A stretch of DNA of 27,736 nucleotides, taken from positions 1 through 27,736 of IMG/VR virus record IMGVR_UViG_3300021502_000006; one strand, given 5' to 3'. Position numbers and translations under genes: made by a program. Source of the stretch: a virus. Below the pieces are notes generated by a model. That model saw nothing but the letters and a program-made list of their open reading frames with translations. It was not told where the DNA came from and did no database searches. Shown in pieces: positions 13,701-27,292 of this stretch (positions are counted from its first letter, which is position 1; each line of letters opens with the position of its first letter).

Positions 13701-14252
13701 CTATCTATCCTCAATCCATGTGTCAGTTTCCGGAATTATCCCATAACCCTTTGAATTCTCTGTTTTCGCTTTGAGCAGCCTCTTCTCATATAATTGTTCA
13801 AGTGTTGCTGCAAGCTGCAGATTCGCACTTGCAGAATAAGCAATTTTTGAAGCGAGTAAAGTTACAACTGCATCGAGAAATTTAGGTTTGAATAGGTTTA
13901 CATCTGAGATATTCGCTATGTAGATAAGATCGAGAGTTTCAGCATCGGCAAGAATTGTATGTCCTTCTTCCCTATACTCAAACTCACTTCCCTCTTCAAT
14001 ATAGATATGATTATAGTCAGGAGGTAATTCAAATGCAGCAGAAAAACCAAAAGCCGGAACAGTAGTCAACGCTGAAAGCGAAGTCCTTTTCCGGGCAAAC
14101 ATCCAATCATCTTCTGAAATAGCTGTCTCTATACAAAGGTCAATAAAAGTGCTTGCAACATCTGCGAGTTTACTTCCATCATCCTCGGAAGCAATCTGTT
14201 CTTCCCCTACAAGGAGAAGTGCCATGTTTATTAAAGTGGTACGGCTTGCCAT
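13701..14252 (-). CDS. Tail adaptor / tail tubular protein A-like (gp11-like)
   Basis: 183 residues. It begins MASRTTLINMALLLVGEEQI, the usual start of podovirus head-tail adaptors (short helix, then a conserved G after hydrophobics). Further on come W-M-F-A-R-K-R, L-P-P-D-Y-N-H and a helical C-terminus with YEKRLLKAKTENSKGYG. It would form the dodecameric ring joining portal and nozzle. It is the first gene after the terminator that follows the capsid accessory gene. Its ribosome-binding site (GGGAGGG, 14257-14263) directly abuts a 24-bp palindrome (14264-14287), suggesting specific control of expression at this point. Confidence 0.85.
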   Translation of the reverse strand: MASRTTLINMALLLVGEEQIASEDDGSKLADVASTFIDLCIETAISEDDWMFARKRTSLSALTTVPAFGFSAAFELPPDYNHIYIEEGSEFEYREEGHTILADAETLDLIYIANISDVNLFKPKFLDAVVTLLASKIAYSASANLQLAATLEQLYEKRLLKAKTENSKGYGIIPETDTWIEDR

Positions 14253-14263
14253 TATACCCTCCC

Positions 14264-14287
14264 AAAAACGAAACTAATTTCGTTTTT
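14264..14287. repeat. 24-bp palindrome, copy 1 (perfect arms)
   Basis: Two perfectly complementary 10-nt arms (left arm AAAAACGAAA, right arm TTTCGTTTTT) flank CTAA. It is identical to copy 4 at 25025-25048 and similar to the copies at 21400-21423 and 22174-22197. On the minus strand, the direction of transcription here, it ends immediately before the GGGAGGG ribosome-binding site of the adaptor gene. It could be a repressor operator, an RNA-level translational operator, or a short-stem terminator with a built-in U-tract. Confidence 0.85.
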
Positions 14288-14313
14288 AAAGAAGGGGAGG
14301 GTTTCCCCTCCCC
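14287..14313 (-). terminator. Rho-independent terminator after the capsid accessory gene
   Basis: Read on the minus strand: an 8-bp perfect GC stem (GGGGAGGG / CCCTCCCC) closed by a GAAA tetraloop and followed by TTCTTTA. It lies 6 nt after the stop of the Bbp16-like gene. It is placed as the T7 late terminator is after the capsid gene and would let capsid genes be transcribed more than the tail genes. Confidence 0.8.
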
Positions 14314-14319
14314 GATTCA

Positions 14320-14691
14320 TTAGGATGCGACAATACCTGCGGTGATCTGTCCTGCTGAGACAGAGGTTGCGGTAGTTCTTATACGTACAAACTGTTCACA
14401 CCCATCCGGGATGGGAAGTTTGAACATCGCACCATTCACAACCTGGGCTGCAGGATAGGCCGGTGAAGTAACAAGATCCGTATATGTACCGCCTTCGGTA
14501 TCACAAGTCTGTATTGTGAAGGTACAGGTTGTTGCACCTGCAAGATCTTCATTGACTACAATCCCGAAGAACGCCTGTTCCCCGACATCGAGATCGAGGT
14601 CTCCGGAATTAAGATCGAGAACATCCCCAACCACACCGGCAGCCACAATATCCTGCTCATAAGCAAAAAGAAGCTTTTTATCAAATATCAT
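14320..14691 (-). CDS. Bbp16-like capsid-associated (decoration/cement) protein
   Basis: 123 residues. It begins MIFDKKLLFAYEQDI, then A-G-V-V-G-D-V-L-D-L-N and a beta-rich body (TCTFTIQTCDTEGGTYTDLV), ending QITAGIVAS. This is the pattern of the small beta-sandwich proteins next to the capsid gene in BPP-1-like podoviruses (Bbp16 family): D-L-N/D-L-G near the start, a 'TF.I.T..' strand, and a 'R.R......G.ITAG.V' end. It probably stabilises the capsid surface. It has a GGAGGAAAGAT site, lies 11 nt after the capsid gene and is followed directly by a strong terminator. Family assignment is from memory of the pattern; the structural role is inferred. Confidence 0.72.
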   Translation of the reverse strand: MIFDKKLLFAYEQDIVAAGVVGDVLDLNSGDLDLDVGEQAFFGIVVNEDLAGATTCTFTIQTCDTEGGTYTDLVTSPAYPAAQVVNGAMFKLPIPDGCEQFVRIRTTATSVSAGQITAGIVAS

Positions 14692-14702
14692 ATCTTTCCT
14701 CC

Positions 14703-15653
14703 TTAGGTTACAGCGTCTTCGCTGGTCCCAATTGCCTCTACCATTTTGATAGGTTTTCCGAGGAAAGTGGTTACAGGTCTTCCAAAAGCCTCTGCAATAC
14801 CGAGATTTACATTGACTTTATCCTTTACGGCAATATCGAACTGTGTAAGCATTGAAGAGTCTGCATAAATTACCGCACCTTTACCACGGCCAGGCATCTT
14901 GTTGAGTGCTTTAATAAGAAGATCATCAACGCCAGAAGTAGCAATATCCTGAGAAGAATCAATGTTTGCAATTCTTGCATAATTATCCTCGTTGTTGATT
15001 ACCATACCGGCTGCAAGCTCGTAGTGGGAAACCCACATCTGCTTGTTTCCATTCGTACTGGTAATGAGTTTCTTACCAAGGTCCTCTTTATTGAGTCCAT
15101 GTTTCCATTCTCCTGGATAGATCATGTGACATTTGGTTTCGCCCCACTGCATAATAAGCAAAGATGTCCTATTTGCAGAGCCGCCGCCGTCATAAACCAT
15201 TGCCTGGGAGAGGGATTTCAGCCTTCCTCTTAGACCGACAAAACTTTTTCCATCAGTAAGCTCATTGATAAATGAGGCAGCAAAGGTTTTCCCGAGACCG
15301 GAAATAAACCGCTGATCCTGATTTGATCTGAACTTCTGTTTGTTTTTCGAGATACGTACAAGTCTGTCGTCAACTTTGGAATATGCTTCCAAGAAAGCCA
15401 TTTCCTCAGTTAATTCTACAAACTGCGCACGTTCGTCCGGAACGTCATCATTGATTGATGTCCATGTACCTGTAGGCTCGTTGAGAGTCTGTAAGTAGGT
15501 ATGCCCGGTAAGACCATTGGCCTGTACCCAAACCATATCCTCGAGTGCTTCAAACTGCTCTACGAGAGTATCTACAACAGGCAGGAATTCATCATCTTTC
15601 ATCTGTTTAACCAAATCCAGCAACGTTGGATTGGTTGAAGTGATAGTTGCCAT
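14703..15653 (-). CDS. Major capsid protein
   Basis: 316 residues starting MATITSTNPTLLDLVKQMKD. It has the layout of podovirus major capsid proteins of the BPP-1/Bcep22 type: a helical N-arm (PVVDTLVEQFEALEDMVW), then LPTG-like GTWTSINDDVPDE, a central helix with SKNKQKFRSNQDQRFISGLG, Gly-rich GRGKGAVIYADSS, and a C-terminal domain ending KPIKMVEAIGTSEDAVT. Length and position (scaffold, then capsid, then decoration) fit. Ribosome-binding site GGAG, then TATTTT and ATG. An HK97-like fold is expected from the family but cannot be tested here. A strong terminator lies one gene downstream, consistent with high expression. Confidence 0.85.
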   Translation of the reverse strand: MATITSTNPTLLDLVKQMKDDEFLPVVDTLVEQFEALEDMVWVQANGLTGHTYLQTLNEPTGTWTSINDDVPDERAQFVELTEEMAFLEAYSKVDDRLVRISKNKQKFRSNQDQRFISGLGKTFAASFINELTDGKSFVGLRGRLKSLSQAMVYDGGGSANRTSLLIMQWGETKCHMIYPGEWKHGLNKEDLGKKLITSTNGNKQMWVSHYELAAGMVINNEDNYARIANIDSSQDIATSGVDDLLIKALNKMPGRGKGAVIYADSSMLTQFDIAVKDKVNVNLGIAEAFGRPVTTFLGKPIKMVEAIGTSEDAVT

Positions 15654-15736
15654 AAAATACTCCTATAGTTTTTTACGCAATTCCGTCAACGTCAACCCGA
15701 TTTCCAAGTGGTTACCGGATCTGATCTTCTCAGGTC

Positions 15737-16567
15737 TTACAGCCCTTTCATTGATGGATAATAAATCTGTCCGGAAGGAACTTCTTCCTTATCATCCAGG
15801 TCTCCATCCAACAATGAATCCCCTTTCAGGGATTTCCCTTTCTCAACGAGAAAGGATATTACTTTGGGGTCGTTTCCAAGTCCAGTTTTATTAAGTTTCT
15901 CCAGGAGATCTTTTCCGCCAAGAGCCTTAATTCCATCCTCCATGAACTTAATGTTTTTTGTATAATCACTTCCCCATTCATTCTTAAAATGTGCCTCAAT
16001 CTTCTCCTTTTCTTCCAGATTGTGTTTTGCAATCGAATCGTATTCTCTCTTAGCTTCATCCGCATACCACTTCTGGAAAGCTTCAAACTGTTTCTCAGTC
16101 CAGGCATTGGTAAGTGCCAATTCCTGTAACCCTTTGAACTGCTCTTCACTTAATTGTACACCCTCTGGTAGGTCAGTGTCAACTTTTTTATACTCATTGA
16201 CATCTTCCGGGACCCCAATACTCTTTAAAAATGCCTTTTTTTCCTCTTCTGTGGCATCTTCTCCGGGTACAAAAGCTTTACCTGCCTTCAATTCCTCCAT
16301 TTCTTTGACTGTTTTCAGGTAAGCATCCGACAAATCATTGATTGTCTGGAATTGTTTTAAGGTCTCGTGAGTTTTATACTCGCCGGCATTTTGCGCCATC
16401 CATTTCGGGAAATCGTTATTCTGGCCCCCTCCATTTTGCGAACCTCCGCCGCCTCCACCATTACCGCCTCCATCTGGCGGGGTATTCTTATCTCCGTCCA
16501 AATCTCCACTGCCAAGCAATGAAGCATCTTCCGTTCCCGGATCACCGGTTCCAGGTTGATTTAGCAT
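15737..16567 (-). CDS. Capsid assembly scaffolding protein
   Basis: 276 residues, acidic and helix-rich. It has a disordered N-terminus with a Gly/Asn/Gln run at about 33-52 (GGGNGGGGGG core), then charged helices (EEKKAFLKSIG, LSEEQFKGLQELAL, KHNLEEKEKIEAHFKNEWGS), then a short tail IYYPSMKGL that could be the capsid-contact segment. The composition, the length and the position between portal and capsid genes are typical of podovirus scaffolds, which fill the procapsid and leave on maturation. ATG preceded by TAGGAGAAAATT. The 83 nt between its stop and the capsid gene show no gene. Confidence 0.8.
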   Translation of the reverse strand: MLNQPGTGDPGTEDASLLGSGDLDGDKNTPPDGGGNGGGGGGSQNGGGQNNDFPKWMAQNAGEYKTHETLKQFQTINDLSDAYLKTVKEMEELKAGKAFVPGEDATEEEKKAFLKSIGVPEDVNEYKKVDTDLPEGVQLSEEQFKGLQELALTNAWTEKQFEAFQKWYADEAKREYDSIAKHNLEEKEKIEAHFKNEWGSDYTKNIKFMEDGIKALGGKDLLEKLNKTGLGNDPKVISFLVEKGKSLKGDSLLDGDLDDKEEVPSGQIYYPSMKGL

Positions 16568-16576
16568 AATTTTCTC

Positions 16577-16828
16577 CTATATAAGTCGTGATATTATCAA
16601 TTCCTCATCTCCGACATCCCATTCGCCGAAGTATGAAAGTAATTGCTTTGCATAATTGCTCAGGGCAACCTCTTCTTCTGTCTCACATCTGCTAAAAAAA
16701 TGCAGATCTGTGAGAATCTTTGTGAGAACCCTCCTTCCATCCTCACTTCCAAAGACGACCCTGAAATCTCTCTCCATAAATTGTTCCTGTTCTTTACTTA
16801 GGACAGGTTTTTTGTGCCAGCTTCTCAT
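16577..16828 (-). CDS. Bbp19-like small head protein
   Basis: 83 residues. The core RDFRVVFGSEDGRRVLTKIL, followed by DLHFF-S-R-C and ALSNYAKQLLSYFG, matches the small alpha-helical Bbp19-like proteins next to portal genes in BPP-1-like podoviruses (pattern 'F...F.t..G..VL..L'). Its exact role is not established in the family. It overlaps the end of the portal gene (ATGA at 16825-16828) and is probably translationally coupled to it, with GAGGGG upstream. Confidence 0.7.
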   Translation of the reverse strand: MRSWHKKPVLSKEQEQFMERDFRVVFGSEDGRRVLTKILTDLHFFSRCETEEEVALSNYAKQLLSYFGEWDVGDEELIISRLI

Positions 16829-18447
16829 CCAAGCATCCCCTCTGCAGGACTACCCGGAACAATCGGCTGGTTAAGCCCAGGCATACTCTTCCCAACTTTC
16901 TCCATCTGCTCCATCTGCTGCTGCTGTTCCATTTGCTGCTGCTGTTCTGCTTTCTGCTGCTCAACCTCAGTCTCTGAAAATAGATTATCAGCCGGGAATC
17001 CATTGTTTATTGCAGCATCACGCATTGTATTTGGCCAATTAATAACCATACCAGCTTCCGGATTAAGCGGCATAACTCTTTCCAAATCGGAAAGTGTTGC
17101 CTTGAAGCCGTCATTAAAGGCCGCCCTCTTCTGCATCTGAGCCAATGGGCCGTAATATTCCCACCCGATCTCACCTTTCAATTCTGCCGGCGGTTCCGGC
17201 ATCCGGCCATTCTTTGCTTCAATATCGAATATCTTAAATAACATATTATCCAGAGCTTCTGACTCATAGTTTGATATTGGAGCCGAGATAAGGGAGGCTT
17301 TCTCTCCTTTCCTCTCTGCAACCTCCATCGCCGTCATTCTCTGTGTCAACTGAGTCAAAAGCTTCCAGTAATCAATGTAAAAAGCTGCATCGACAGCCTT
17401 CTTCTTCCTGTCCCATTGATCTACGCCAACCGGGTAATTTGTTGCCAAGTGCCAGGGCTGAACAATCCTCCCAGGATCTCCATAGTAATTCGCTCCGCCG
17501 GGTTTATTCCGGACTTTATCTTTCATTTCCTCCGGAATGTTAAGAGGTGGGTTTGCCGCCTTGTGAGCAGCTTGTAATAATGTTTTTGCCATGGCGTTAA
17601 GCCCTTTAATATCCGGAAGTGCATCATGCGCAGGGCCTCTTCCATACTTCTCAAGCCCTTCAACCCTATACCGCCAGACAATGAATGGAAATGTATCAAA
17701 TCCGCCAACCCGGATAATGTCTTTCTGCCCCTCCTCCCAGTATACAGAGGCAGTCTCACCTTTCACTCCGGGAAATTTGAACCATTCATCTTTCGCCGGG
17801 AATACGGCGTGCATTATTGTTACCTTCTCAAATGGACTCTCTTCGGCCATCTTCAACAACTCTTTAGATAACTTATTCTTTTCTTTGATAAAATAATTGG
17901 CTGCAGCCCTTGCACCAACCTTTATTTCCCGATATATTGTATCAACTTCACCAAACCAGTTATGATCCAGATATATCTCGCTCGGATGTCTTAAATTAAA
18001 AACAGCCCTCCCGGTGGCCGGGTCTTCCTCCATGTACATTGTCGCAGTCGCAATCGTTATACCCATTTTTGTATAACTCGGGATAACTTTGTAGAAATTA
18101 CTCCGGGCAAGAGCGGCCAGAATGATATAATTAACTTTCTGAAAATATGACTGTACGGTCAATTTTTTATTAATATCCGGATCCAGGGCTCTCATTCCAA
18201 CCCAGGGTGCGCTTTTGGATATTAAATTACCCACAATACCATCGGCCATCGTATTCGCATCCTCAATCCCGGTCGTATCATACACATCTTTGGCATATTC
18301 ATCAGACTCGGTGTCCTCTTTCTCAAACATCAACGATATCTGCGGATTTACATACTTTGCTATTTCCGTCCACGTCCCCACCTGCTTCTTGTTTTCTTCC
18401 TTAAGCATTTCGAGACGTTTGTTTAACGATTTAAGATCTGCACCCAT
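16825..18447 (-). CDS. Portal / head-tail connector protein (T7 gp8-like)
   Basis: 540 residues. Conserved podovirus connector features: a helical N-terminus (LNKRLEMLKEENKKQVGTW), then EIAKYVNP, then YDTTGIEDANTMADGIVGNL, W-V-G-M-R at the base of the core, LRHPSEIYLDHNW, and a central helix region with GRGPAHDALPDIKGLN. The C-terminus is low-complexity and Gln/Met/Glu-rich (repeated QQQQMEQ), ending NQPIVPGSPAEGMLG. As the dodecameric portal it docks the terminase during packaging and the tail adaptor afterwards. Start overlaps the previous gene by one base (TAATG) with a GGGAG site. Confidence 0.88.
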   Translation of the reverse strand: MGADLKSLNKRLEMLKEENKKQVGTWTEIAKYVNPQISLMFEKEDTESDEYAKDVYDTTGIEDANTMADGIVGNLISKSAPWVGMRALDPDINKKLTVQSYFQKVNYIILAALARSNFYKVIPSYTKMGITIATATMYMEEDPATGRAVFNLRHPSEIYLDHNWFGEVDTIYREIKVGARAAANYFIKEKNKLSKELLKMAEESPFEKVTIMHAVFPAKDEWFKFPGVKGETASVYWEEGQKDIIRVGGFDTFPFIVWRYRVEGLEKYGRGPAHDALPDIKGLNAMAKTLLQAAHKAANPPLNIPEEMKDKVRNKPGGANYYGDPGRIVQPWHLATNYPVGVDQWDRKKKAVDAAFYIDYWKLLTQLTQRMTAMEVAERKGEKASLISAPISNYESEALDNMLFKIFDIEAKNGRMPEPPAELKGEIGWEYYGPLAQMQKRAAFNDGFKATLSDLERVMPLNPEAGMVINWPNTMRDAAINNGFPADNLFSETEVEQQKAEQQQQMEQQQQMEQMEKVGKSMPGLNQPIVPGSPAEGMLG

Positions 18448-18962
18448 TATACACTCCCGGCAAAGGTGGCTGCTTCAATATCTTCTTTCTTCAATTTATC
18501 TGCAGTACCAATAACCTGTTTCAATAATTGTTTGATATATTCCCTGTCACTGTCTTTTCCACTCGGTTCCTCCCCGGTTGCATTACGGTATAATTTCCCA
18601 AATTCCTCATCATCCATCGAATCAATCGCATCTTCTGTAAGAAATTTCCCATCCGTATCAGTAAAAATACTCACAAGCTCCTTGTCAGAAACCGCCTTGT
18701 TCTTCTCGTCAATCTTATCCTGATCTATCAGCTTCTGATCAGAGGTCGCCAAAGTAGCCCCTTCCCCGGCTGCAAAGGTCTCTATCGGCCGGTCGCTCTC
18801 CCTCGTTGCCGTCCCGCTCTCCCCGGGAATACCCCCGGTGTCCGCAAAACTGCCTTCCTTATTCTTCGGCTGTATATCGTATTGACTCAATAAACTCTCT
18901 ACTTCGTCAGCATTATCCTTCCCGACAATCTCAATCAGCTTCTTTATTAACTCTTCCATCAT
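18447..18962 (-). CDS. Acidic hypothetical protein between terminase and portal genes
   Basis: 171 residues, strongly acidic (many D/E clusters such as IDSMDDEEFGKLY). It starts MMEELIKKLIEIVGKDNADE and has a low-complexity Gly/Ser/Thr/Glu middle (GGIPGESGTATRESD). Helix-rich ends flank the disordered middle. ATG follows GGAGGTAA. No known family recognised. Position between the large terminase and the portal in an otherwise morphogenetic operon suggests a packaging or head-assembly accessory, but this is inference from context only. Confidence 0.7.
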   Translation of the reverse strand: MMEELIKKLIEIVGKDNADEVESLLSQYDIQPKNKEGSFADTGGIPGESGTATRESDRPIETFAAGEGATLATSDQKLIDQDKIDEKNKAVSDKELVSIFTDTDGKFLTEDAIDSMDDEEFGKLYRNATGEEPSGKDSDREYIKQLLKQVIGTADKLKKEDIEAATFAGSV

Positions 18963-19104
18963 TTACCTCCAGCTCTTTAATATATTCTACCAAATACCGA
19001 ATTTCACTATCTATCAAATACTCGGCTACATTTTTCAATACGCCTCTCGCCCTGTAATCCTTTACTTCCTTGATGCAATCCTGCACTTTTAAGCGTTTTT
19101 TCAA
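18931..19104 (-). CDS. Small helical hypothetical protein (possibly the 3' part of a frameshifted gene)
   Basis: 57 residues from a TTG at 19104, preceded by GAGGAGG with 6-nt spacing: MKKRLKVQDCIKEVKDYRAR, then a basic/acidic helix rich in L, E and V ending VNKEAD. The same frame is open upstream to 19161 but has no other good start. The reading frame directly upstream (19007-19174) also looks protein-like, and deleting one base in the six-A run at 19096-19101 would join them into a single roughly 80-residue helical protein. It is therefore either a separate small gene or the second half of a broken or frameshifted gene. Function unknown. It overlaps the following gene by 32 nt. Confidence 0.5.
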   Translation of the reverse strand: MKKRLKVQDCIKEVKDYRARGVLKNVAEYLIDSEIRYLVEYIKELEVNDGRVNKEAD

Positions 19105-19174
19105 TCTCAGCCTCCTCTTTAATATAATCATAAAGCCAATCATTTCCTTTGCAAATATCAATTAAGCTTCCCAT
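19007..19174 (-). CDS. Small ORF overlapping the end of the large terminase gene (possible 5' part of a frameshifted gene)
   Basis: 55 codons starting MGSLIDICKGNDWLYDYIKE. ATG at 19174 lies 8 nt after GAGGAA, inside the end of the terminase gene. The first 26 residues look like real coding sequence (ending KEEAEIEK); after the six-A run at 19096-19101 the frame becomes less protein-like (GLQGERRIEKCSRVFDR). A +1 change at the A-run would fuse it in frame to the downstream 57-residue protein. Could be a natural mutation, a homopolymer sequencing error, recoding, or two overlapping genes. Confidence 0.4.
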   Translation of the reverse strand: MGSLIDICKGNDWLYDYIKEEAEIEKTLKSAGLHQGSKGLQGERRIEKCSRVFDR

Positions 19175-20700
19175 ACGTCAAATTCCTCTTCATCATGGCT
19201 ATATTCATCGTAAGACTCTACATAGTTCTTCTCAATAGCCCCGGTGGGAAACGGCATGAAAACAGCCTTATGATTAATCTTCGCCAGGCAGTCAAGCATA
19301 TCATCATGCTCCACAAACGGATATATCGTCAATTCCTGCTCTATAAACACCTTTACCAGGTCCTCGCTCTTATGTTCCCAATTAGTCCGGTAAATATGTT
19401 CCGGGAAATATATCCTCCCCTGCTCAAAAATAGGTACTAAACTCTGGATTCTCGCCTGTTTTGCCGAATTTTCCCTCAAACTCGTTATATGAAACCGGTA
19501 ATTGTACTGCTCCATTACGTATTTAAAATGCTCTATATCGTTCATCATCGCACTTTCCTCGTATCCGACAAACTTCGGATCATACTTCTGATGTAAATTA
19601 AACAATATAGACGCCCTTTCTGTCAAATTTAATTTATCCCGGATCATCTCAATTACATAATAGTTCTTGTCCGGGCCATATCCGATTACCCAGAAGACTG
19701 TATAGTCGTTATCCTTCCCTTTCTTTGAAGCCGGGTCGCAAAAAATCGCAACATTCAGCCCTGTATAAATCTCCCCGGGCCAATACTTCATCCACTTCTC
19801 TTCAAATCCCTGTTTATCTTCCTGCAGCGGGTCCAGAAGCATCTGTGCTGCAAATATATACGGCCCCATCTTCTTATATTTACCGGCCAATGTCTCCTTT
19901 GACATGAATACCGGTTCGCCGTCAGCTTTACCATTCTTCGTCGCCGGGTATATCCGGGGGATTATCTCCCCTGTTTTCCGGATCGTATCATATGTATCAT
20001 ACGGATGGTAAATTGTGCCTTCGTACCATTCTCGTCCGCCGTCCCTCCCAAGGTTTTGTGATAACCGCCAGCCGGCAGTTGTCTTTTCTCTCATAGCCTG
20101 CGTCAAAACAGTCTTATCAGTTACAATATCATTGTAAATCCTCAATACAAAATGCTTTGATGTAGGCTGTGCGTCAATAACTCCCCAGGCTTCCACAGTC
20201 TGCTCATTCGGATTCGTGTCTCTCTTAACACAAATCCCGCTCTCCGCACTCCAGCTGAATCCGTACTTCTTCGATTCCTTCTTCGGATTCTGCCAAAAAA
20301 TTTCCGGGAAAAGCCACTTCAACAATTCATTACTCTCAAGCTCTTTCATTATCATTTTCAAAAAAGCTTTCGCTATCGGCCGGTTAAAGGAGAATATACC
20401 GATAGTAATCTCCGGATCTTTACATATCTCCTGAATCGTCCCGGCAAACGTTATTAAACTCGACTTGTAATGCTCCCTCGCCCATAAGTCCAGTCTCGAG
20501 TCCGGATCCGCCTCAACTTCCCTCGCTCTCGCATATACCCAGTCATTATCCCCGTCCTTCCTCTTCAATACCCTCGTAAACAAAAAAAACCGGTCATGAA
20601 GTACCAATTCCCTCATGACCAGCCGTAATGTCTCTTTGCCGTGTTTCTCAGCTTTCTTTAGAGTTTCATCGTAATATGTATTGGCTTCTACTCTTGTCAA
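19162..20700 (-). CDS. terL: Terminase large subunit
   Basis: 512 residues; packaging motor ATPase and nuclease. N-terminal ATPase: a Walker A-like REHYKSS at 75-81 and a hydrophobic Walker B-like strand ending in Asp (LRIYND, D191). C-terminal RNase H-like nuclease: first Asp in IFCDPASKKGKDNDYTVF (D322), Glu at GYEES near 381-382, and Asp in HDDMLDCLA (466-470). The start is TTG, preceded by AGAGG at about 7 nt; there is no upstream ATG in frame before the neighbouring gene. The nuclease order D-E-D and the length are normal. It should dock on the portal encoded three genes downstream and act with the small terminase-like protein at 21423-21980. Confidence 0.92.
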   Translation of the reverse strand: MTRVEANTYYDETLKKAEKHGKETLRLVMRELVLHDRFFLFTRVLKRKDGDNDWVYARAREVEADPDSRLDLWAREHYKSSLITFAGTIQEICKDPEITIGIFSFNRPIAKAFLKMIMKELESNELLKWLFPEIFWQNPKKESKKYGFSWSAESGICVKRDTNPNEQTVEAWGVIDAQPTSKHFVLRIYNDIVTDKTVLTQAMREKTTAGWRLSQNLGRDGGREWYEGTIYHPYDTYDTIRKTGEIIPRIYPATKNGKADGEPVFMSKETLAGKYKKMGPYIFAAQMLLDPLQEDKQGFEEKWMKYWPGEIYTGLNVAIFCDPASKKGKDNDYTVFWVIGYGPDKNYYVIEMIRDKLNLTERASILFNLHQKYDPKFVGYEESAMMNDIEHFKYVMEQYNYRFHITSLRENSAKQARIQSLVPIFEQGRIYFPEHIYRTNWEHKSEDLVKVFIEQELTIYPFVEHDDMLDCLAKINHKAVFMPFPTGAIEKNYVESYDEYSHDEEEFDVWEA

Positions 20701-20710
20701 TTACAAACCT

Positions 20711-21004
20711 CTAAAATATCTCTTTCAATTTATCCTTAAGACCCTTCTTCTCTTTCTTTTTCTCAACCTTTTCTCTAATCTTCTCTTCTTTCTTAATTAC
20801 CTGTTCGACCGGTTTGTCTTCCAGCTTCTCCGCATCTACCATATCCGTTATCATCGGTCCCTTCCCGGGCAGCTCCCTATATACCCGGCCACATACCGGA
20901 CACACCATCGTTACCATTACCTGCCAGCCGTATGACATCTTTACCATCTTAACCACAGGTTTACCCTTCACATGCTTACACTTCCTCGCAAACCTTACCT
21001 TCAT
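20711..21004 (-). CDS. Basic protein with zinc-ribbon-like knuckle
   Basis: 97 residues. The N-terminal half carries C-K-H (9-11) and CPVCGR (35-40), a possible zinc-binding set around a short beta region (MSYGWQVMVTMV). The C-terminal half is a Lys/Glu-rich helix (KKEEKIREKVEKKKEKKGLK) that may be a coiled coil. It is overlapped by the preceding gene (ATGA at 21001-21004). A nucleic-acid-binding role is plausible from composition. With only three cysteines and one histidine visible, zinc binding is not certain. Located just before the large terminase, so a packaging accessory is possible. Confidence 0.65.
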   Translation of the reverse strand: MKVRFARKCKHVKGKPVVKMVKMSYGWQVMVTMVCPVCGRVYRELPGKGPMITDMVDAEKLEDKPVEQVIKKEEKIREKVEKKKEKKGLKDKLKEIF

Positions 21005-21426
21005 CTATTCCTCCTCGCCCATATTATCAAATGAGCATAATTCGCTATATCCGCCGCTTCCCTCTCAATCTCAAACACTATCCTCTCATCCATCATTTCA
21101 TCTATTATCGCCTTCCCTAATTCCTCAACTTCCCCCTGGAGTAAAAAATACAACTCCGTTATGTCAGTCGGAAATTCCCCCTTATTTACCCGGTCTTTAA
21201 ACTTGACTACCTGCCACCTATTCCCTAACCGGATAACCTTCTTATATGGCCTAAATTTCCTCCCGAAAATTCTATCCACTCTTTTAAAAATTTTTGGTAA
21301 ATAACTCGTGAGTAATCCACTACTGTTCCGTTTTAATTCAATGGGGGAGGGTGACGGGGTTGTGTTTCCAATATTACGTTTTCTATCCGTGAGTCTGTCA
21401 AATACGAAACTGGTTTCGTTTTTCAT
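21001..21426 (-). CDS. MazG-like nucleotide pyrophosphohydrolase-type protein
   Basis: 141 residues. The C-terminal 55 residues contain the two half-motifs of the all-alpha NTP pyrophosphohydrolase (MazG-like) fold: E99-V-E-E102 in LLQGEVEELGKAI and E123-A-A-D126 in EREAADIANYAHLII. These acidic residues bind Mg2+ in the family, which hydrolyses NTPs or dNTPs to monophosphate and pyrophosphate. The N-terminal 80 residues are basic and not recognised. The first codons after ATG are copy 2 of the 24-bp palindrome (residues 2-9, KNETSFVF). The start overlaps the preceding stop (ATGA) with AGGAG 7 nt upstream. Such proteins are often encoded by phages; its place inside the packaging operon is unusual. 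Confidence 0.65.
   Translation of the reverse strand: MKNETSFVFDRLTDRKRNIGNTTPSPSPIELKRNSSGLLTSYLPKIFKRVDRIFGRKFRPYKKVIRLGNRWQVVKFKDRVNKGEFPTDITELYFLLQGEVEELGKAIIDEMMDERIVFEIEREAADIANYAHLIIWARRNR
21400..21423. repeat. 24-bp palindrome, copy 2 (inside a coding region)
   Basis: Imperfect copy (AAATACGAAAC + TGG + TTTCGTTTTT) lying within codons 2-9 of the MazG-like gene, on the opposite strand to the coding sense. One arm mismatch (A for T) is shared, in inverted orientation, with copy 3 at 22174-22197, so these two copies are closer to each other than to copies 1 and 4. Confidence 0.75.
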
Positions 21427-21980
21427 TCGTCTGCTCCTACCAACAATCCTCTTCCTACTTCCTCATCGAGATACTTTTCCTTGACCGGTGGGTTTATTAT
21501 CCTTACGTTGTCTATCATGTCCCGGACCTCTGCTGGTAGTATGTCCTTCTCTTCCTTCTTTTCGCTTGGCTTGTATACTTCCGTAAGCTTCAGTAACCTA
21601 TTCTTCTCTTTCTGTATGTCTAAACATAACTTCAAACTCTGTATCTTCTGATCCCCTTCTGCGTTCTCCAGTGCTACCTTATACATATAGTCCAGATTCA
21701 GTATCGCACGCCCTAAGTGTTCAGTTCTTGCCTGCATACTGTTCCCTACTATATCATCTTTTGCCTTTCTCAAGTAGTTATCTATGGCACTATTAGTGAG
21801 TCCCCATGACTCAACCTCAGGATCTACTAATATCTGTGCTCTCTTCATCCCACGTGCTAAGAGGGTTATGATGTGGTCTATGCGATTTTGTATTATTGCG
21901 TTAGATTGTTTGGTATTTCTCTTTTTATGTATGATATCCATGAGAGTAGTATAACCGGGGGAAGGAGATTTTGCAATCAT
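21423..21980 (-). CDS. Terminase small subunit-like protein (start uncertain: 21980 or 21941)
   Basis: 185 residues from ATG 21980, or 172 from ATG 21941. The N-terminal part resembles a helix-turn-helix (RIDHIITLLARGMKRAQILV, then ESWGLTNSAIDNYLRKAK), followed by long helices (EHLGRAILNLDYMYKVALE, SLKLCLDIQKEKNRLLKL). This matches small terminases of the type with an N-terminal DNA-binding domain, an oligomerising helical middle and a disordered C-terminus. It would recognise the packaging site and recruit TerL. It is the first gene of the leftward operon. Neither start has a good ribosome-binding site. A promoter-like pair (TTGCAA, 17 nt, TATACT) places a transcript start at about 21941, so a leaderless mRNA starting MDIIHKKRN is possible. 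Confidence 0.7.
   Translation of the reverse strand: MIAKSPSPGYTTLMDIIHKKRNTKQSNAIIQNRIDHIITLLARGMKRAQILVDPEVESWGLTNSAIDNYLRKAKDDIVGNSMQARTEHLGRAILNLDYMYKVALENAEGDQKIQSLKLCLDIQKEKNRLLKLTEVYKPSEKKEEKDILPAEVRDMIDNVRIINPPVKEKYLDEEVGRGLLVGADE
21948..21976 (-). promoter_or_regulatory. Candidate sigma70-type promoter for the leftward late operon
   Basis: On the minus strand TTGCAA (21976-21971), a 17-bp spacer, then TATACT (21953-21948). A transcript would begin around 21941, which is the A of the second possible ATG of the terminase small subunit-like gene. The -10 matches 5 of 6 consensus bases and the -35 matches 4 of 6. Confidence 0.4.
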
Positions 21981-22124
21981 TTTTTGATTTGGTGTGTGTT
22001 TTTGTTGAGTTTTATTGGTTTTTATCTGGTTTCTGTCTCTTATGAGTCGGTCTCTAATGACTTATAGTGATTATAAGAGGGTTGGTAAAAGTGTGTCAAG
22101 TACCGACTGATCAGTCAGAAGTGA

Positions 22125-22166
22125 TTTGTTATTAAATAATTTAATAGGAGTTTGGTTGGCTATAAG
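22125..22166. repeat. Direct repeat, copy A (42 bp)
   Basis: Begins TTTGTTATTAAATA and ends TATAAG. Matches copy B at 22195-22236 in about 33-35 of 42 positions by eye, with start-to-start distance exactly 70 bp. The 24-bp palindrome (copy 3) lies between the two copies. Confidence 0.75.
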
Positions 22167-22173
22167 TTTAATT

Positions 22174-22197
22174 AAAAACGAAACTGATTTCGTATTT
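22174..22197. repeat. 24-bp palindrome, copy 3
   Basis: AAAAACGAAAC + TGA + TTTCGTATTT; arms match except one position. It lies between the two 42-bp direct repeats of the control region, consistent with an operator in the divergent promoter region. Confidence 0.8.
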
Positions 22198-22236
22198 GTT
22201 ATTAAATATTTTAATAGTAAGTGTGTTGGTTATAAG
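22195..22236. repeat. Direct repeat, copy B (42 bp)
   Basis: Begins TTTGTTATTAAATA and ends TTATAAG; partner of copy A at 22125-22166. Its end forms the left arm of the TATAAG-N5-CTTATA dyad at 22231-22247. Confidence 0.75.
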
Positions 22237-22253
22237 AATAACTTATATATCAT
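22226..22253 (+). promoter_or_regulatory. Weak candidate promoter for the rightward block
   Basis: TTGGTT (22226-22231), 16 bp, TATCAT (22248-22253), overlapping the TATAAG/CTTATA dyad. The -10 is good and the -35 poor. If used, the transcript would carry the long inverted repeat at 22344-22502 as a 5' leader before the first gene. Confidence 0.3.
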
Positions 22254-22343
22254 ATCATTGCTGTTTAGTTTCTTTAGTCTCTCTTGTTATCAATCTGTAA
22301 GTGATTTGTGTCTCTTCTTCTTCGGGTTTTTTAATTATGCACC

Positions 22344-22502
22344 CCTCGCAAAAAACTTTCAAGGCCGAGTCGGAGAAATATCAAAAATAATAACGGTCTT
22401 GCTTCTACTTCTTTATAGTCTTAGGTGTTCGTATGATTTTTGACATTTCTCCTTTAAACCTCCGCTTCGCTCCGGGCCTTGACTCGGTTTTTTGCTGCGA
22501 GG
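22344..22502. repeat. Long imperfect inverted repeat in the leader of the rightward operon
   Basis: Nested complementary segments: CCTCGC (22344-22349) with GCGAGG (22497-22502); AAAAAAC (22350-22356) with GTTTTTT (22487-22493); AAGGCC (22361-22366) with GGCCTT (22475-22480); and 20-nt arms 22372-22391 and 22433-22452 pairing at 18 of 20 positions around a 41-nt loop. CCGAGTC (22365-22371) can instead pair with GACTCGG (22481-22487), which is followed by TTTTTT, giving an alternative terminator-like form. Confidence 0.7.
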
Positions 22503-22540
22503 TTAAGAGTCAACCCATATTAAGAATCAAGGAGATCAAG

Positions 22541-22672
22541 ATGGCTTACAAAACATGGAAACAGTTAAATCTACGTACATTAAGGAAACAGTACAATTCA
22601 TTGTCAAAGGTGTTTCGTAATGAAATCAGTTTTGATGATTTTTGTACTACTTCGTATGACAGTAGACGTTAA
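22541..22672 (+). CDS. Small hypothetical protein, first gene of the rightward block
   Basis: 43 residues: MAYKTWKQLNLRTLRKQYNS, then LSKVFRNEISFDDFCTTSYD and a short basic end. ATG at 22541 is preceded by AAGGAGATCAAG, a strong ribosome-binding site, so this start is chosen over upstream in-frame codons. Basic N-terminal helix, acidic/aromatic C-terminus, no membrane segment. No family recognised. It follows the long inverted repeat, and its stop codon lies inside the first of four tandem hairpins. Small first genes like this in phage early operons often take over host functions, but nothing in the sequence assigns a role. Confidence 0.65.
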   Translation: MAYKTWKQLNLRTLRKQYNSLSKVFRNEISFDDFCTTSYDSRR

Positions 22673-22755
22673 GGCGTCCAGGGAGGTCCGAGTCCTCCCT
22701 GCTGCATAATGCTTTCTCGTATGAGAGAGTCTAATTTAATACCGCTCGAAAGAGC
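22665..22755 (+). ncRNA. Run of four tandem hairpins between two early genes
   Basis: Hairpins in order: GACG-TTAAGG-CGTC (22665-22678); CAGGGAGG-TCCGAGT-CCTCCCTG (22679-22701, 8 bp); CTTTCTC-GTAT-GAGAGAG (22712-22729, 7 bp with one G-T pair); GCTC-GAAA-GAGC (22744-22755, GNRA tetraloop). None is followed by a U-tract, so a simple terminator is unlikely. They may be processing sites, a stable mRNA spacer or a small RNA. Confidence 0.45.
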
Positions 22756-22767
22756 AAGGAGTTTATT

Positions 22768-23223
22768 ATGGAAATGAAGAAAATGTTTACAGACAAGATT
22801 GACGGGATTTACAACATCGATCAGTACGAGGATCCCAATACTGCATGGGAAGTGTTGGAATCACTTGCTAACGATCGTGGAATGGACGACAACATGAAGT
22901 TTGCTTTTAACCGCAATTTCTACGGTTACATCAAGGATTATGAACAGAAGTTTGATACTGAGATCATGCGCCCGGTTAAACATGGAGTTGAATATCTTCT
23001 CTCGCTTTCTCTTGATGATAGAGAAAAAATCTATCTTAAAGGCGACTTCTGGGGCAGGACTTGGAAACTTCTCGATCCTAATTCACAGTACGGCATCGCA
23101 TGGAAATCTGAATCCGGAACAGCAAGGTTCCCTTCTCAATACATGCACTTCGTTAAAATCGTGTTTATGAACGACCTTCACAAACATCTCTCAAAAGTTG
23201 TTCTTGAAAAGAAGGAGGCATAG
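22768..23223 (+). CDS. Hypothetical protein, 151 residues
   Basis: Begins MEMKKMFTDKIDGIYNIDQY and ends KHLSKVVLEKKEA. ATG preceded by AAGGAG at 6 nt. Soluble-looking, rich in aromatic and acidic residues (RNFYGYIKDYEQKFDTE, LKGDFWGRTWKLL); no cysteine pairs, signal peptide or membrane helix seen. No family recognised. It is followed one base later by the next gene, whose ribosome-binding site is inside its last codons. The N-terminal 'MFTDK' resembles 'IFTDKK' of the next protein, a very weak hint of relatedness. Confidence 0.7.
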   Translation: MEMKKMFTDKIDGIYNIDQYEDPNTAWEVLESLANDRGMDDNMKFAFNRNFYGYIKDYEQKFDTEIMRPVKHGVEYLLSLSLDDREKIYLKGDFWGRTWKLLDPNSQYGIAWKSESGTARFPSQYMHFVKIVFMNDLHKHLSKVVLEKKEA

Positions 23224-23224
23224 C

Positions 23225-23527
23225 ATGTTGATGTCTTCTATTTTCACAGATAAGAAAGATGTAAACCTTCTCAACCCAGAAAGAGTTTACTATCTTGAGG
23301 GCGGGTACAAACTCTCCCATTTCAAGGTATGGCGTCTTAGTTATGGTGAACGTGAGATTATGACTGAATCTCATGTTAATTTCTGGAATATAGTTGATCT
23401 ATTTCCCAGAAAGACTTACAAGTTCACAGACGTTGCTAACTTCGCTGTTGCGGAGTGGCAAGAGAAACAGTACGTCGGCAGCGATACAGAGGGTCATACG
23501 CTCGATCGGATAATCCGGTCAATGTAA
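23225..23527 (+). CDS. Hypothetical protein, 100 residues
   Basis: Begins MLMSSIFTDKKDVNLLNPER and ends HTLDRIIRSM. The ATG at 23225 follows AAGGAGG with a 6-nt gap, which decides the start; an ATG two codons later is also possible. Beta-like N-terminal part (RVYYLEGGYKLSHFKVWRLS), then FWNIVDLFPRKTYKF. No family recognised. Expressed with the preceding gene and closed by a strong terminator 8 nt after its stop. Confidence 0.7.
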   Translation: MLMSSIFTDKKDVNLLNPERVYYLEGGYKLSHFKVWRLSYGEREIMTESHVNFWNIVDLFPRKTYKFTDVANFAVAEWQEKQYVGSDTEGHTLDRIIRSM

Positions 23528-23534
23528 TCAAGTT

Positions 23535-23560
23535 GCTCCCTGAAAAGGGAGCTTCTTTTT
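23535..23560 (+). terminator. Rho-independent terminator
   Basis: Perfect 7-bp stem GCTCCCT / AGGGAGC with GAAA tetraloop, followed by TTCTTTTT. It ends the transcription unit containing the 151- and 100-residue proteins. Confidence 0.9.
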
Positions 23561-23630
23561 ATTTCCTCAGAATTTCTATAAGTAATTTTTTCTTTTTAGG
23601 GTAATCCGATATGGTTCTGACAATTATATT

Positions 23631-23659
23631 TTTTTGGATGAATAAATCATCTTTATAAT
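23631..23659 (+). promoter_or_regulatory. Candidate promoter for the ssb unit
   Basis: A perfect TATAAT at 23654-23659 with TTTTTG (23631-23636) 17 bp upstream; only the -10 is convincing. It lies between a terminator and the next gene pair, where a promoter is needed. Confidence 0.4.
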
Positions 23660-23681
23660 TTTTATTTAATAGGAGGTTTGA

Positions 23682-23828
23682 ATGTACGTAGAGGATATTA
23701 CCGATTATCAATTTAAAGAAGTGTATCATATGGATATATTTGATAGAGATGAATATGTCGAACTTCAAAATATCCGTGCTAATAAACGTAAAATCAAGAA
23801 ATATCATTTTAAGGGGGATTGGAGATGA
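23682..23828 (+). CDS. Small hypothetical protein upstream of ssb
   Basis: 48 residues: MYVEDITDYQFKEVYHMDIF, then an acidic stretch and a basic C-terminus (NKRKIKKYHFKGDWR). ATG lies 5 nt after AGGAGG. The stop overlaps the start of ssb (ATGA at 23825-23828), so translation of ssb is probably coupled to it. The acidic-then-basic layout suggests a small regulator or binding protein, but no family was recognised. Confidence 0.65.
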   Translation: MYVEDITDYQFKEVYHMDIFDRDEYVELQNIRANKRKIKKYHFKGDWR

Positions 23829-24166
23829 ATAATCTTAATTCATTTTTGGTTGAAGGTAATTTGGTTAGAGATCCGGAGTTGACTATAACGGAGGCCGGTA
23901 ATAGTGTATGTAATTTTACTATTGCCAGTAATCGGTATTATAAGAATGGTTCTGGAGAGCCTATCCAAGAAGTATCTTATTTCGATTGTGTTGCGTGGAA
24001 TGGACTTGCTGAGGTATGCTCTGAATATCTACATAAGGGCCGTGGTGTACGTATTGTCGGCCGTCTCAAACAGGATAGATGGATTGATACAGATGGCAAC
24101 AAAAAGGCTCGTATCAAGGTTATCTGCGATAGCGTTGATTTTAAACCTGTGTTTACACAACATTAA
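23825..24166 (+). CDS. ssb: Single-stranded DNA-binding protein
   Basis: 113 residues. OB-fold SSB signature: FLVEGNLVRDPELTITEAGN, then VCNFTIASNRYY, VSYFDCVAWNGLAEVCSEYL and GRGVRIVGRLKQDRW. It coats single-stranded DNA during replication or recombination. ATG 23825 is favoured because it overlaps the upstream stop (ATGA) and follows GGGGGATTGGAG; an in-frame TTG two codons earlier is less likely. The protein ends directly after the OB fold (DFKPVFTQH) and lacks the acidic, Phe-ended tail that cellular SSBs use to bind partners. Followed by a terminator. Confidence 0.93.
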   Translation: MNNLNSFLVEGNLVRDPELTITEAGNSVCNFTIASNRYYKNGSGEPIQEVSYFDCVAWNGLAEVCSEYLHKGRGVRIVGRLKQDRWIDTDGNKKARIKVICDSVDFKPVFTQH

Positions 24167-24173
24167 GGAGAAG

Positions 24174-24198
24174 GGGAGAATTCTTTTCTCCCTTTTTT
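24174..24198 (+). terminator. Rho-independent terminator after ssb
   Basis: Stem GGGAGAA / TTCTCCC with a 5-nt loop followed by six T residues, 7 nt after the ssb stop. Confidence 0.85.
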
Positions 24199-24251
24199 CT
24201 GAATAGTTCTACAGTTTTATGAATTGTGGATGATTAAATCTGGAGGGTGTA

Positions 24252-24689
24252 ATGGCTGATTATACAAGAAAAGAATTAGTTGAACTATTAATGGCAATGG
24301 AGAAATCGATACCGAGTGTTCGTATAACTTCTCCGAGTGATATTATTACAATGTTTGTTCAGGAAATGTATGCCAATCAGGAATTATTTATGGTTGTTGG
24401 TTTAGATGGGGCGCACAATATTATATACAAAGAGATTGTTACCAAGGGAATCCTTAACAAAACACTCGTCCACCCAAGAGAAATCTATAGAAAGGCTATA
24501 GTGGAAGGTTGTGAAAGCATAATCGCAGTACACAACCACCCATCCGGCAGCGCTGAGCCGTCAACCGAAGATGATCAAATAACAGAAAGATTGAAAAAAG
24601 CCGGTAAGGTTATCGGAATCAATCTCCTTGACCATATAATAATTGGAAAGAAAGGATATTTTTCTTACACTGAAGAATATAAATTATAA
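24252..24689 (+). CDS. radC: RadC-like JAB/MPN-domain protein
   Basis: 145 residues, essentially only the JAB domain of RadC. The JAMM metal motif is complete: E44 in NQELF, H94-x-H96 in AVHNHPSGSAEPS and D107 ten residues later. Cellular RadC proteins are longer, with an N-terminal helix-hairpin-helix region that is absent here. Family knowledge: JAMM proteins are zinc isopeptidases or hydrolases; the biochemical role of RadC-like proteins is unsettled and they are common next to antirestriction genes on mobile elements, as here (ArdC two genes on). ATG follows GGAGGGTGTA. Confidence 0.88.
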   Translation: MADYTRKELVELLMAMEKSIPSVRITSPSDIITMFVQEMYANQELFMVVGLDGAHNIIYKEIVTKGILNKTLVHPREIYRKAIVEGCESIIAVHNHPSGSAEPSTEDDQITERLKKAGKVIGINLLDHIIIGKKGYFSYTEEYKL

Positions 24690-24716
24690 CAGTAAAATTT
24701 TTTTTAGGAGTGTATT

Positions 24717-25025
24717 ATGAATTCTTTAAAAACTTTCATAAGATTGATGAATGATTTTGTTAAAGCACAGAAGAAGTATGCTGATTGTGGTGCATGGGAT
24801 ACCGAACCTTCATATCATTTCCGATATGGTGTTGCGAATATCTTAAGGGGTAACCCCTGGAAAGGTTTAACTCCGGATGAATGGGAATTGTATACAGAGT
24901 GTTCTAAAAGGAAGCTTGCAGCACGTGCATTAAATACAAGGATGCGAAGAATTGAAAGGTTTGTGTTGGATCACCCCATGATAAATGCAGAAAAACTTAT
25001 TGATATTGTAGATCAAAATTTTTGA
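24717..25025 (+). CDS. Hypothetical protein, 102 residues
   Basis: Begins MNSLKTFIRLMNDFVKAQKK. Helix-rich and basic in the middle (ECSKRKLAARALNTRMRRIE), ends DIVDQNF. ATG follows AGGAGTGTATT. Contains W-D-T-E-P-S-Y-H-F-R-Y-G near residues 27-38. No family recognised. Its stop codon overlaps the first base of palindrome copy 4, and the next ribosome-binding site follows that palindrome at once. Confidence 0.7.
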   Translation: MNSLKTFIRLMNDFVKAQKKYADCGAWDTEPSYHFRYGVANILRGNPWKGLTPDEWELYTECSKRKLAARALNTRMRRIERFVLDHPMINAEKLIDIVDQNF

Positions 25026-25048
25026 AAAACGAAACTAATTTCGTTTTT
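25025..25048. repeat. 24-bp palindrome, copy 4 (perfect arms)
   Basis: Identical to copy 1 at 14264-14287: 10-bp arms around CTAA. It starts at the stop codon of one gene and directly abuts GGAGGTTAAA, the ribosome-binding site of the 18-codon leader ORF. It could act as a terminator, a translational operator or a DNA operator. Confidence 0.85.
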
Positions 25049-25058
25049 GGAGGTTAAA

Positions 25059-25115
25059 ATGGCTGTATATATCATTTTTAAAGGCGAAGAAATTGTTGAA
25101 TGGGGTGGAAGATGA
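25059..25115 (+). CDS. 18-residue leader peptide ORF before ardC
   Basis: MAVYIIFKGEEIVEWGGR. ATG preceded by GGAGG with 6-nt spacing (TTAAAA included), the best ribosome-binding site in this stretch. Its stop overlaps an ATG of the ArdC-like gene (ATGA at 25112-25115), which itself lacks a strong site, so the mini-ORF probably delivers ribosomes to ardC by re-initiation. The palindrome just upstream may control both. Confidence 0.5.
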   Translation: MAVYIIFKGEEIVEWGGR

Positions 25116-25879
25116 AAGCAGCAGAATTGATAAATAAAGTCAAAGATGAGATCACCGATCCAAATCTGATTATAAAAACTCTCGAATATAATATCTTTGG
25201 TGCTGATATTCCAATGAAAAAATGGTCAAGAACAAATCAAATAATAGCATTGATGTATGGCCATACAGATGCAAGATCTTACAATGCCTGGAAGTCTATC
25301 AATAGAACAGTTAAAAAGGGCGAAAAAGCTTTTTATATTATAAAGCCCTATACTTTTAAAGATAAAGAAACCGGAGAAGTTACTCTCCGGTTTGGGACTC
25401 AAGCTGAATTTGGATATATTCAGACTGAGGGTGAAGTACCACCAGAATACAATAAAGTTGAAGAAAAGGCAATAGTTTATCCCGATGTTTATAAAATTGC
25501 TGATATGCTTGGAGTTGAGATTGTAAAAGATGTTTCGCGAACTGGAGAAGCTGCTTCTTATAACAACACAACAAAAACAATCAGAATAACATCCGATGAT
25601 CCCAATGCAGTATTTCATGAATTATCCCATGCAATAGATCATGCTGTAAATGAGAATCTCGGAACAACTGCAGAAAAAGAAATTGTTGCAGAATTTTCCT
25701 CAGCTGTTCTCAGTATGTATTATAAAGTAGACAACGATATGGGAGTTTCCAAGGGATATCTTGAGTATTTTTCCGAAGGAAATCTTGTTCATAAATTAAA
25801 TATTTTGTTGCCAAGAATTGAAAATGTGATAAAATATGTTGTAGATGCTAACGATACAGTATTACAAAAAGTGTCATAG
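25112..25879 (+). CDS. ardC: ArdC-type antirestriction protein (ssDNA-binding domain plus zincin metallopeptidase)
   Basis: 255 residues from ATG 25112, overlapping the leader ORF; an in-frame ATG at 25100 would add four residues. N-terminal ArdC-like single-strand DNA-binding domain: W-S-R-T-N-Q-I-I, then RSYNAWKSINRTVKKGEKAF (family pattern 'Y..W......VKKGEKA'). C-terminal zincin domain: SYNNTTKTIRI, then HELSHAID with H169-E170-L-S-H173 and a candidate third ligand at E190 or E194 (EKEIVAEF). Known ArdC proteins protect incoming single-stranded plasmid DNA from restriction; here it would shield phage DNA or act on host proteins. The motif set is complete. Confidence 0.88.
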   Translation: MKAAELINKVKDEITDPNLIIKTLEYNIFGADIPMKKWSRTNQIIALMYGHTDARSYNAWKSINRTVKKGEKAFYIIKPYTFKDKETGEVTLRFGTQAEFGYIQTEGEVPPEYNKVEEKAIVYPDVYKIADMLGVEIVKDVSRTGEAASYNNTTKTIRITSDDPNAVFHELSHAIDHAVNENLGTTAEKEIVAEFSSAVLSMYYKVDNDMGVSKGYLEYFSEGNLVHKLNILLPRIENVIKYVVDANDTVLQKVS

Positions 25880-26924: not shown

Positions 26925-26995
26925 ACGGCTGTAGTTCAAGATTGCAGAATACTGGATCGTGCACCGGAGATGCAGGGCCATGCCTGTCAGCCGTA
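26925..26995 (+). tRNA. tRNA-His-like cloverleaf with aberrant loops (probably non-canonical or degenerate)
   Basis: Stems: perfect 7-bp acceptor ACGGCTG / CAGCCGT (26925-26931 with 26988-26994); D stem GTTC / GAAT with a 9-nt loop; anticodon stem CTGG / CCGG (26952-26955 with 26964-26967) with loop ATCGTGCA; T stem GCAGG / CCTGT (26972-26976 with 26983-26987) with 6-nt loop GCCATG. It aligns along its length with bacterial tRNA-His (GCTATAGCTCAG, CTGGATTGTG in E. coli), placing GTG in the anticodon position. Odd: position 33 would be C rather than the invariant T, the T-loop lacks TTCRA, the D-loop lacks GG, and no CCA is encoded. Either a decayed tRNA or a tRNA mimic. Confidence 0.5.
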
Positions 26996-26999
26996 ATTG

Positions 27000-27033
27000 A
27001 AGGTGAATATCTATGAAGCACCTTTTTAAACTA
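27000..27033 (+). promoter_or_regulatory. Hairpin with U-run covering a 10-codon ORF
   Basis: AAGGTG (27000-27005) pairs with CACCTT (27019-27024) and is followed by TTT, a weak terminator form. The left arm is also a possible ribosome-binding site for ATG 27013 (MKHLFKLKID, stop at about 27043), so the hairpin would hide it. Probably separates the two tRNA-like elements. Confidence 0.3.
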
Positions 27034-27062
27034 AAGATAGATTGACAGCCGGAAAGACGGCG

Positions 27063-27206
27063 TAGGCAAGTGGCGGAAGTAGACGCTCTCTAAATAGCGG
27101 TAATTAGAGAAAATGGCCAGGCGTGTCAGTGCGAAAATCCGGTAGTAGGACGTCTTAATAAGTGAACGGTCGCACACATTGCAGGTATCAAATCCTGCCT
27201 TGCCTA
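27063..27206 (+). tRNA. tRNA-Leu-like structure with an enlarged variable region (about 70 nt)
   Basis: Acceptor arms TAGGCAAG (27063-27070) and CTTGCCTA (27199-27206) pair over 8 bp. Next come TG and the D-arm GCG-GAAGTAGA-CGC, which with its flank reads TGGCGGAAGTAGACGC, close to the class II Leu signature TGGCGGAATTGGTAGACGC but lacking TTGG. Then TCTCTAA-N10-TTAGAGA (27087-27110) in place of a normal anticodon arm, then about 70 nt holding GTGCGA / TCGCAC (27129-27134 with 27170-27175), then a T-arm GCAGG-TATCAAAT-CCTGC (27181-27198, 8-nt loop instead of 7). Total 144 nt against about 85 for a class II tRNA. No group I intron core was recognised. Could be a disrupted tRNA gene or a tRNA-derived RNA. 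Confidence 0.5.
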
Positions 27207-27292
27207 TAATCGGATATGCTTCCGTATGGGAGATTACCGGCAAAGGCTATCCCTGAATAGTCTACACTTCAAAATTAGAGAAAAACTTTTTA

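Follow-up and report, generated by a model that had tools for sequence, protein, structure and literature searches.

The closest precedents for the sites described here are two systems known from mycobacteriophages, namely the stoperators of cluster A and the SAS/ESAS elements of cluster K. Stoperators, as known from L5 and its Rep protein, are many dispersed sites in short intergenic gaps that are served by one phage DNA-binding protein, and both the motif and the repressor differ between phages; those of L5 are asymmetric 13-mers that are bound by a monomer and strongly oriented (PMC9283540, PMC6550527). At many genes, an element that contains the RBS is immediately preceded by the inverted repeats of an ESAS, the consensus of which varies from one subcluster to the next. 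Each ESAS has a pair of imperfect 17-bp repeats around a variable spacer and is linked to the conserved SAS GGGATAGGAGCCC, and no binder is named (PMC3203893, PMC12699233). With regard to recognition of palindromes, the exchange of Arg and Gln in the recognition helix of ParB and Noc decides between contact with G and with A (PMC7383237).

The sites analyzed here are found in a virus fragment of 27,736 bases, hereafter called the window. Like stoperators they are multiple and dispersed over short intergenic gaps, and like ESAS they are located upstream of the RBS at multiple genes, with a sequence specific to the phage. Unlike stoperators with their fixed orientation, however, they are 24-bp palindromes, with copies 1 and 4 opposite in orientation to their genes; the putative regulator belongs to an unrelated family, DUF3102, and often has a copy of the site inside its own gene. 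They differ from SAS/ESAS in their 10-bp arms and 4-bp centre, in having no fixed RBS sequence common to the sites (the sequence downstream is a variable RBS only), and in that a binder can be proposed. A putative HTH protein on a palindrome, with an Arg tied to C:G at base 9, is reminiscent of ParB-parS and Noc-NBS (PMC7383237), as is a weak similarity to the HTH fold of ParB, while the site sequence, the placement at junctions and the lack of a matched CTPase domain in the DUF3102 protein of a relative (G005) are unlike ParB-parS. In our assessment, the palindromes are quite probably DNA operators of a phage DUF3102 protein (HTH plus coiled coil), bound by a dimer, which would control late, tail and early accessory genes together.

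The window contains genes for terminase, connector, major head and tail proteins, and also encodes a Bbp16-like protein, SSB and RadC. A 2299-aa ORF with a HELGH metallopeptidase-like motif (2045-8944, minus strand) and homologs in the relatives G008 and G005 is probably a large ejected internal virion protein. A region without long ORFs (26930-27350) looks tRNA-like by eye (e.g. GGTATCAAATCCTGCCTTGCC), and neither ARAGORN nor Rfam finds anything there. No match to the window was obtained by megablast against phages.

An earlier note, made from the letters of the window, had reported four copies of the palindrome, and all of them are present exactly where it had placed them (Table 1). Copies 1 and 4 are indeed identical, with perfect 10-bp arms, and adjoin ribosome-binding sites on opposite strands, while the arms of copies 2 and 3 pair at 9/10 positions; all four are of the type AAAWNCG...CGNWTTT. 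The position of copy 2 at the start of an ORF, directly after the stop of ORF 21423-21980, also held, whereas the MazG-like label given to its gene was not confirmed, the product having no match in Pfam or PHROGs; relatives of this protein were not found in viral contigs. The divergent control region assigned to copy 3 was likewise borne out, the copy being located between two direct repeats. The exact core ACGAAA-N4-TTTCGT occurs four times in the window against 0.002 expected from a first-order model (none in 100 simulated windows), and with up to two mismatches it has nine matches compared to 1.7 in shuffles. No Rfam match at gathering scores was found in the window, no sigma-70 promoters were found overlapping copies 1 or 4, and a literature search for the palindrome motif and for KNETSFVF yielded nothing.

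Table 1. Palindrome copies and neighboring features, in positions of the window.
Feature	Position	Strand	Remarks
Tail protein gene	13701..14252	-	phrog_394; directly downstream of copy 1
RBS GGGAGGG	14257..14263	-	adjoins copy 1; ATG 14250-14252, 11 nt off
Palindrome copy 1 (candidate operator)	14264..14287	-	between terminator hairpin (position kept in relatives) and tail-gene RBS
Intrinsic-terminator-like hairpin	14294..14313	-	directly upstream of copy 1; position kept in relatives
Palindrome copy 2	21400..21423	-	codons 2-9 (KNETSFVF) of ORF 21001-21426
Consensus sigma-70-like promoter, TTGACA-18-TATAAT	22070..22099	-	near copy 3, towards late block; pattern match only
48-nt direct repeat, left of copy 3	22124..22171	+
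Palindrome copy 3	22174..22197	.	divergent control region
48-nt direct repeat, right of copy 3	22194..22241	+	81% identical to left repeat
Palindrome copy 4	25025..25048	+	at stop codon of ORF 24717-25025; adjoins RBS GGAGG (+), ATG 10 nt away
18-aa leader ORF	25059..25115	+	after copy 4; overlaps start of ArdC-like gene; read from sequence
ArdC-like gene	25100..25879	+	downstream of copy 4; weak ArdcN match; phrog_7245 anti-restriction

Relatives were fetched by means of the major head protein (66-81% identical), and could be aligned to the window from the gene after the head gene to the next tail gene. The order in this region is terminator-like hairpin, palindrome, RBS and ATG, and the site homologous to copy 1 is occupied in both L008 (AAAAACGCAAGTAGTTGCGTTTTT) and L012 (AAAAACGCACCTACATTCGTTTTT), with a compensatory change in L008. 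Searches of whole records showed that the motif is conserved as dispersed copies in each of three relatives, with six in G002, seven in G005 and eight in G008, the last being a more distant relative with 54% terminase identity, while a backwards control pattern gave no matches in the same searches. The outer arms (AAAAACG / CGTTTTT) are common to the window and the relatives. The inner triplet, on the other hand, is specific to each phage and is the same at nearly all sites within it, i.e. AAA/TTT in the window, CAA/TTG in G002, mostly CAC/GTT in G005 and ACA/TGT in G008. Since it changes in concert within each phage, this pattern argues for a trans-acting factor that varies from phage to phage.

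The placement at translation starts that the earlier note had emphasized holds in the relatives as well. The window, G002, G005 and G008 together have 25 distinct sites, and by a tally made by hand, with the ATG of G002:78 at 10 nt read separately, the distance from the end of the site to an ATG preceded by an RBS is 9-15 nt in 15 of these. Several sites overlap the stop codon of the preceding gene or come immediately after it. Clear exceptions are two sites of G008 that fall within genes, namely its DUF3102 gene and a tail gene. Neither a loss of the motif in relatives nor a scatter unrelated to starts was thus seen.

The pattern AAAWACGAAA-N4-TTTCGTWTTT was matched in 50 genomic stretches from bacteria and archaea and in 14 stretches of viral contigs, where the reversed control pattern had no match. 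As one motif-bearing prophage had a DUF3102-like protein, motif-bearing records were searched for PF11300, for which neither Pfam nor PHROGs gives a function, and it was found in nine out of the ten viral records with the motif that are 30 kb or longer. Its background in three samples of bacterial genomes is 1-4% (11/296, 7/291 and 4/395). In a follow-up test on records from another pattern scan, where a record counted as palindromic with at least 4/5 inner pairs, DUF3102 was present in 4/4 palindromic and 1/25 non-palindromic records (Fisher p 0.0002), two of the four palindromic positives being below the Pfam cut-off. Some motif-bearing genomes (Solidesulfovibrio and G019) had no PF11300 match. 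Many copies of the palindrome were observed in Solidesulfovibrio aerotolerans, which lacks a PF11300 match, and also in the uncultured bacterium Loclat_bin-14761 (L032, L049, L053, L061 and the CAIOST01 contigs L019, L029, L031, L043, L045 and others).

Both G005 and G008 encode DUF3102, and a tblastn search with the G005 protein gave no match in named phages. At both ends of the G008 contig (start of L164, end of L166) there are parts of one and the same DUF3102 gene, and the ends therefore overlap or are mis-joined. No DUF3102 gene was recognized in the window; however, judged by synteny with G005, the window ends several kb before the corresponding position, and the gene of this phage is for that reason presumed to be in the unsequenced remainder.

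The 24-bp palindrome of AAA...TTT type recurs within DUF3102 genes from both genomes and viral contigs, e.g. in G014, G016, G020, G021, G032, G033 and one G025 gene, and also in the Streptococcus phages 5093 (an S. thermophilus phage, with AAATTCGACAACGTTGTCGAATTT), 20617, CHPC642 and Javan623. Most of these in-gene sites are found just 3' of the codons of an S-x-R-T-A-Q-x-x-M helix. With at least 9/10 positions paired as the threshold, 34 out of 60 distinct DUF3102 genes had such a palindrome, against 2.2 in synonymous-codon shuffles, and 17 of the 60 had perfect arms, against 0.07; the genes were mostly gathered independently of the motif, though a few (G020, G014, G033 and near copies) had entered by way of it. 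The remaining 26, at this threshold, have no in-gene palindrome, and neither has G005's own DUF3102 gene. The sequences of the sites vary widely (AAATCCGACAACGTTGTCGGATTT, AAATTCCGAAACGTTTCGGAATTT, AAATGTGCAATCGATTGCACATTT), and the encoded residue pairs (T..Y, P..D, A..H and S..N) change together as DNA complementarity demands, from which it appears that the in-gene site is kept by selection acting on the DNA. The sites of L270/L271 and G021 are read in a different frame, those of L270/L271 moreover being placed ahead of the helix codons, which suggests that in-gene sites arose more than once.

A connection between protein and site was also found at the level of single residues. Base 9 of the half-site is predicted by the recognition-helix residue that comes after A-Q, or by the equivalent of this residue, the base being C in 12/12 genes with a helix Arg and 0/24 without it; with later genes added, the counts are 15/15 and 1/27, the sole exception being a Lys in phage 20617. 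The p-values are indicative only, since the helix residues were assigned manually and the genes share ancestry. In a tree from which the helix and site columns had been excluded, each of the two traits switches six times, and out of six independent pairs in all, the four on well-supported (starred) branches agree, which is too few for significance alone. The dispersed sites of the podovirus relatives fit the same rule: G008 combines the helix PRTAQRYM (Arg) with sites of the form ACGACA, where base 9 is C, while G005 has IRTAQKYM (Lys) and ACGCAC, base 9 not being C in its commonest sites. The in-gene ACA palindrome of L270/L271 similarly accompanies an Arg helix. The chemistry is a familiar one, given the Arg/Gln exchange of ParB and Noc mentioned above. 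A second candidate rule, connecting Arg or Lys two residues before A-Q to CG at bases 6-7, is not claimed, as only a single independent pair on starred branches bears on it.

The model of one DUF3102 protein (mean pLDDT 85) has an HTH-like pair of helices (residues 60-68 and 72-84) and, after it, long coiled coils, and the shorter protein of G005 is modeled with confidence in its first approximately 90 residues only. Fold searches with full models were dominated by coiled coils, with otherwise weak matches only, and sequence searches gave no convincing relative of solved structure. Two other annotations in the family concern methylation, i.e. a weak MT-A70 methyltransferase match in the C-terminal half of a DUF3102 protein from a genome of the spirochaete phylum (L190:907-1740, minus strand), and a DNA-methyltransferase-like annotation of the DUF3102 protein of a Paenibacillus phage.

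Another possibility is that DUF3102 acts on its sites as ParB does on parS, gathering them for condensation, segregation or packaging instead of controlling genes. Palindromes like parS are likewise dispersed, the coiled coil could bridge sites, and Foldseek aligned the HTH region with Spo0J/ParB (1vz0_E) over 93 columns with an rmsd of 3.0. That alignment is weak, however, with an E of 1.4 and amid coiled-coil matches, the matches listed for the G005 model included no ParB, and in the G005 protein only DUF3102 was matched. Moreover, the sites are concentrated at gene junctions beside RBSs, and in the integrase-bearing Streptococcus phages 5093 and 20617 the DUF3102 gene is located between a cro/HTH gene and an antirepressor. 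We consequently judge an organizing or partitioning role unlikely.

The earlier note had preferred a translational operator or a site of RNA processing, and had named a DNA operator for one regulator as its alternative; it is the alternative that our results favor. As an RNA element, the palindrome would form a hairpin in the 5' leader next to the RBS, which could control translation, be processed by an RNase or stabilize the mRNA. The spacing to start codons given above would suit an RNA element, hairpins with perfect arms have folding energies of -6 to -10 kcal/mol, and the flanking terminator hairpin is conserved. Over all sites, however, the range is from -10.1 to only -1.7 kcal/mol, the latter for one of several G005 sites that barely fold. 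A leader hairpin would also leave unexplained the mid-gene sites in DUF3102, remote from any start, and in a tail gene, as well as the orientation of copies 1 and 4, and the site co-varies with a recognition helix of the DNA-binding HTH type. An RNA-level function of the palindromes thus appears improbable.

A mobile or REP- or RPE-like repeat, spread by copying and without any phage regulator, would agree with the presence of similar palindromes in unrelated genomes, some with many copies, but is highly improbable given the concerted change within each phage, the homologous site kept in relatives, the association with DUF3102 and the helix covariation. Three further candidates were dropped: a promoter for a single-subunit RNA polymerase, as no such polymerase was recognized by eye among the G005 gene calls; the palindrome itself as an intrinsic terminator, its stem being A/T-rich and some sites being inside genes; and a LacI-type operator, considered for the AACGTT centres in some genomes, because the centre varies freely.

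Returning to DUF3102 as the binder of DNA operators, we infer that a dimer would physically occupy the palindrome, with one recognition helix per half-site, and thereby influence transcription. Within this podovirus family the operators would mostly be found between a stop codon and the next RBS, in addition to the divergent control region. Binding could have its effect as a roadblock, by repression or by looping, and the bound protein would most likely either reduce transcription through the junction, in a manner similar to stoperators, or repress nearby promoters. In the former case RNA polymerase would be hindered from entering the next gene, as has been proposed for stoperators (PMC9283540), a likeness that we put forward by analogy; in the latter, the consensus-like promoter beside copy 3 is an example of a possible target. 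Late, tail and early accessory genes could in either case be controlled jointly. The presence of one site inside many DUF3102 genes also suggests that the protein may regulate its own gene negatively.

We know of no described target site for DUF3102, although the family is spread over phages and prophages of Streptococcus, Paenibacillus, Clostridia, spirochaetes and cyanobacteria, and the palindrome would be the first likely target for this widespread and unstudied group of proteins. A wider proposal, to which we would give even chances, is that DUF3102 is a broad family of site-specific DNA-binding phage regulators, often with their own operator embedded in the gene, usually right behind the recognition-helix codons, and that the podovirus lineage has expanded this self-site to a genome-wide network of junction operators coordinating early with late genes, in which amino acid and base correspond by a readable code. 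Having a predicted site and a simple rule (helix Arg with C at base 9) makes the function of DUF3102 directly testable. If true, dispersed phage junction sites would be known from a further and apparently unrelated system, beside stoperators and ESAS, and the in-gene palindromes would be a clear example of DNA-level selection preserving a site within the gene of its own regulator.
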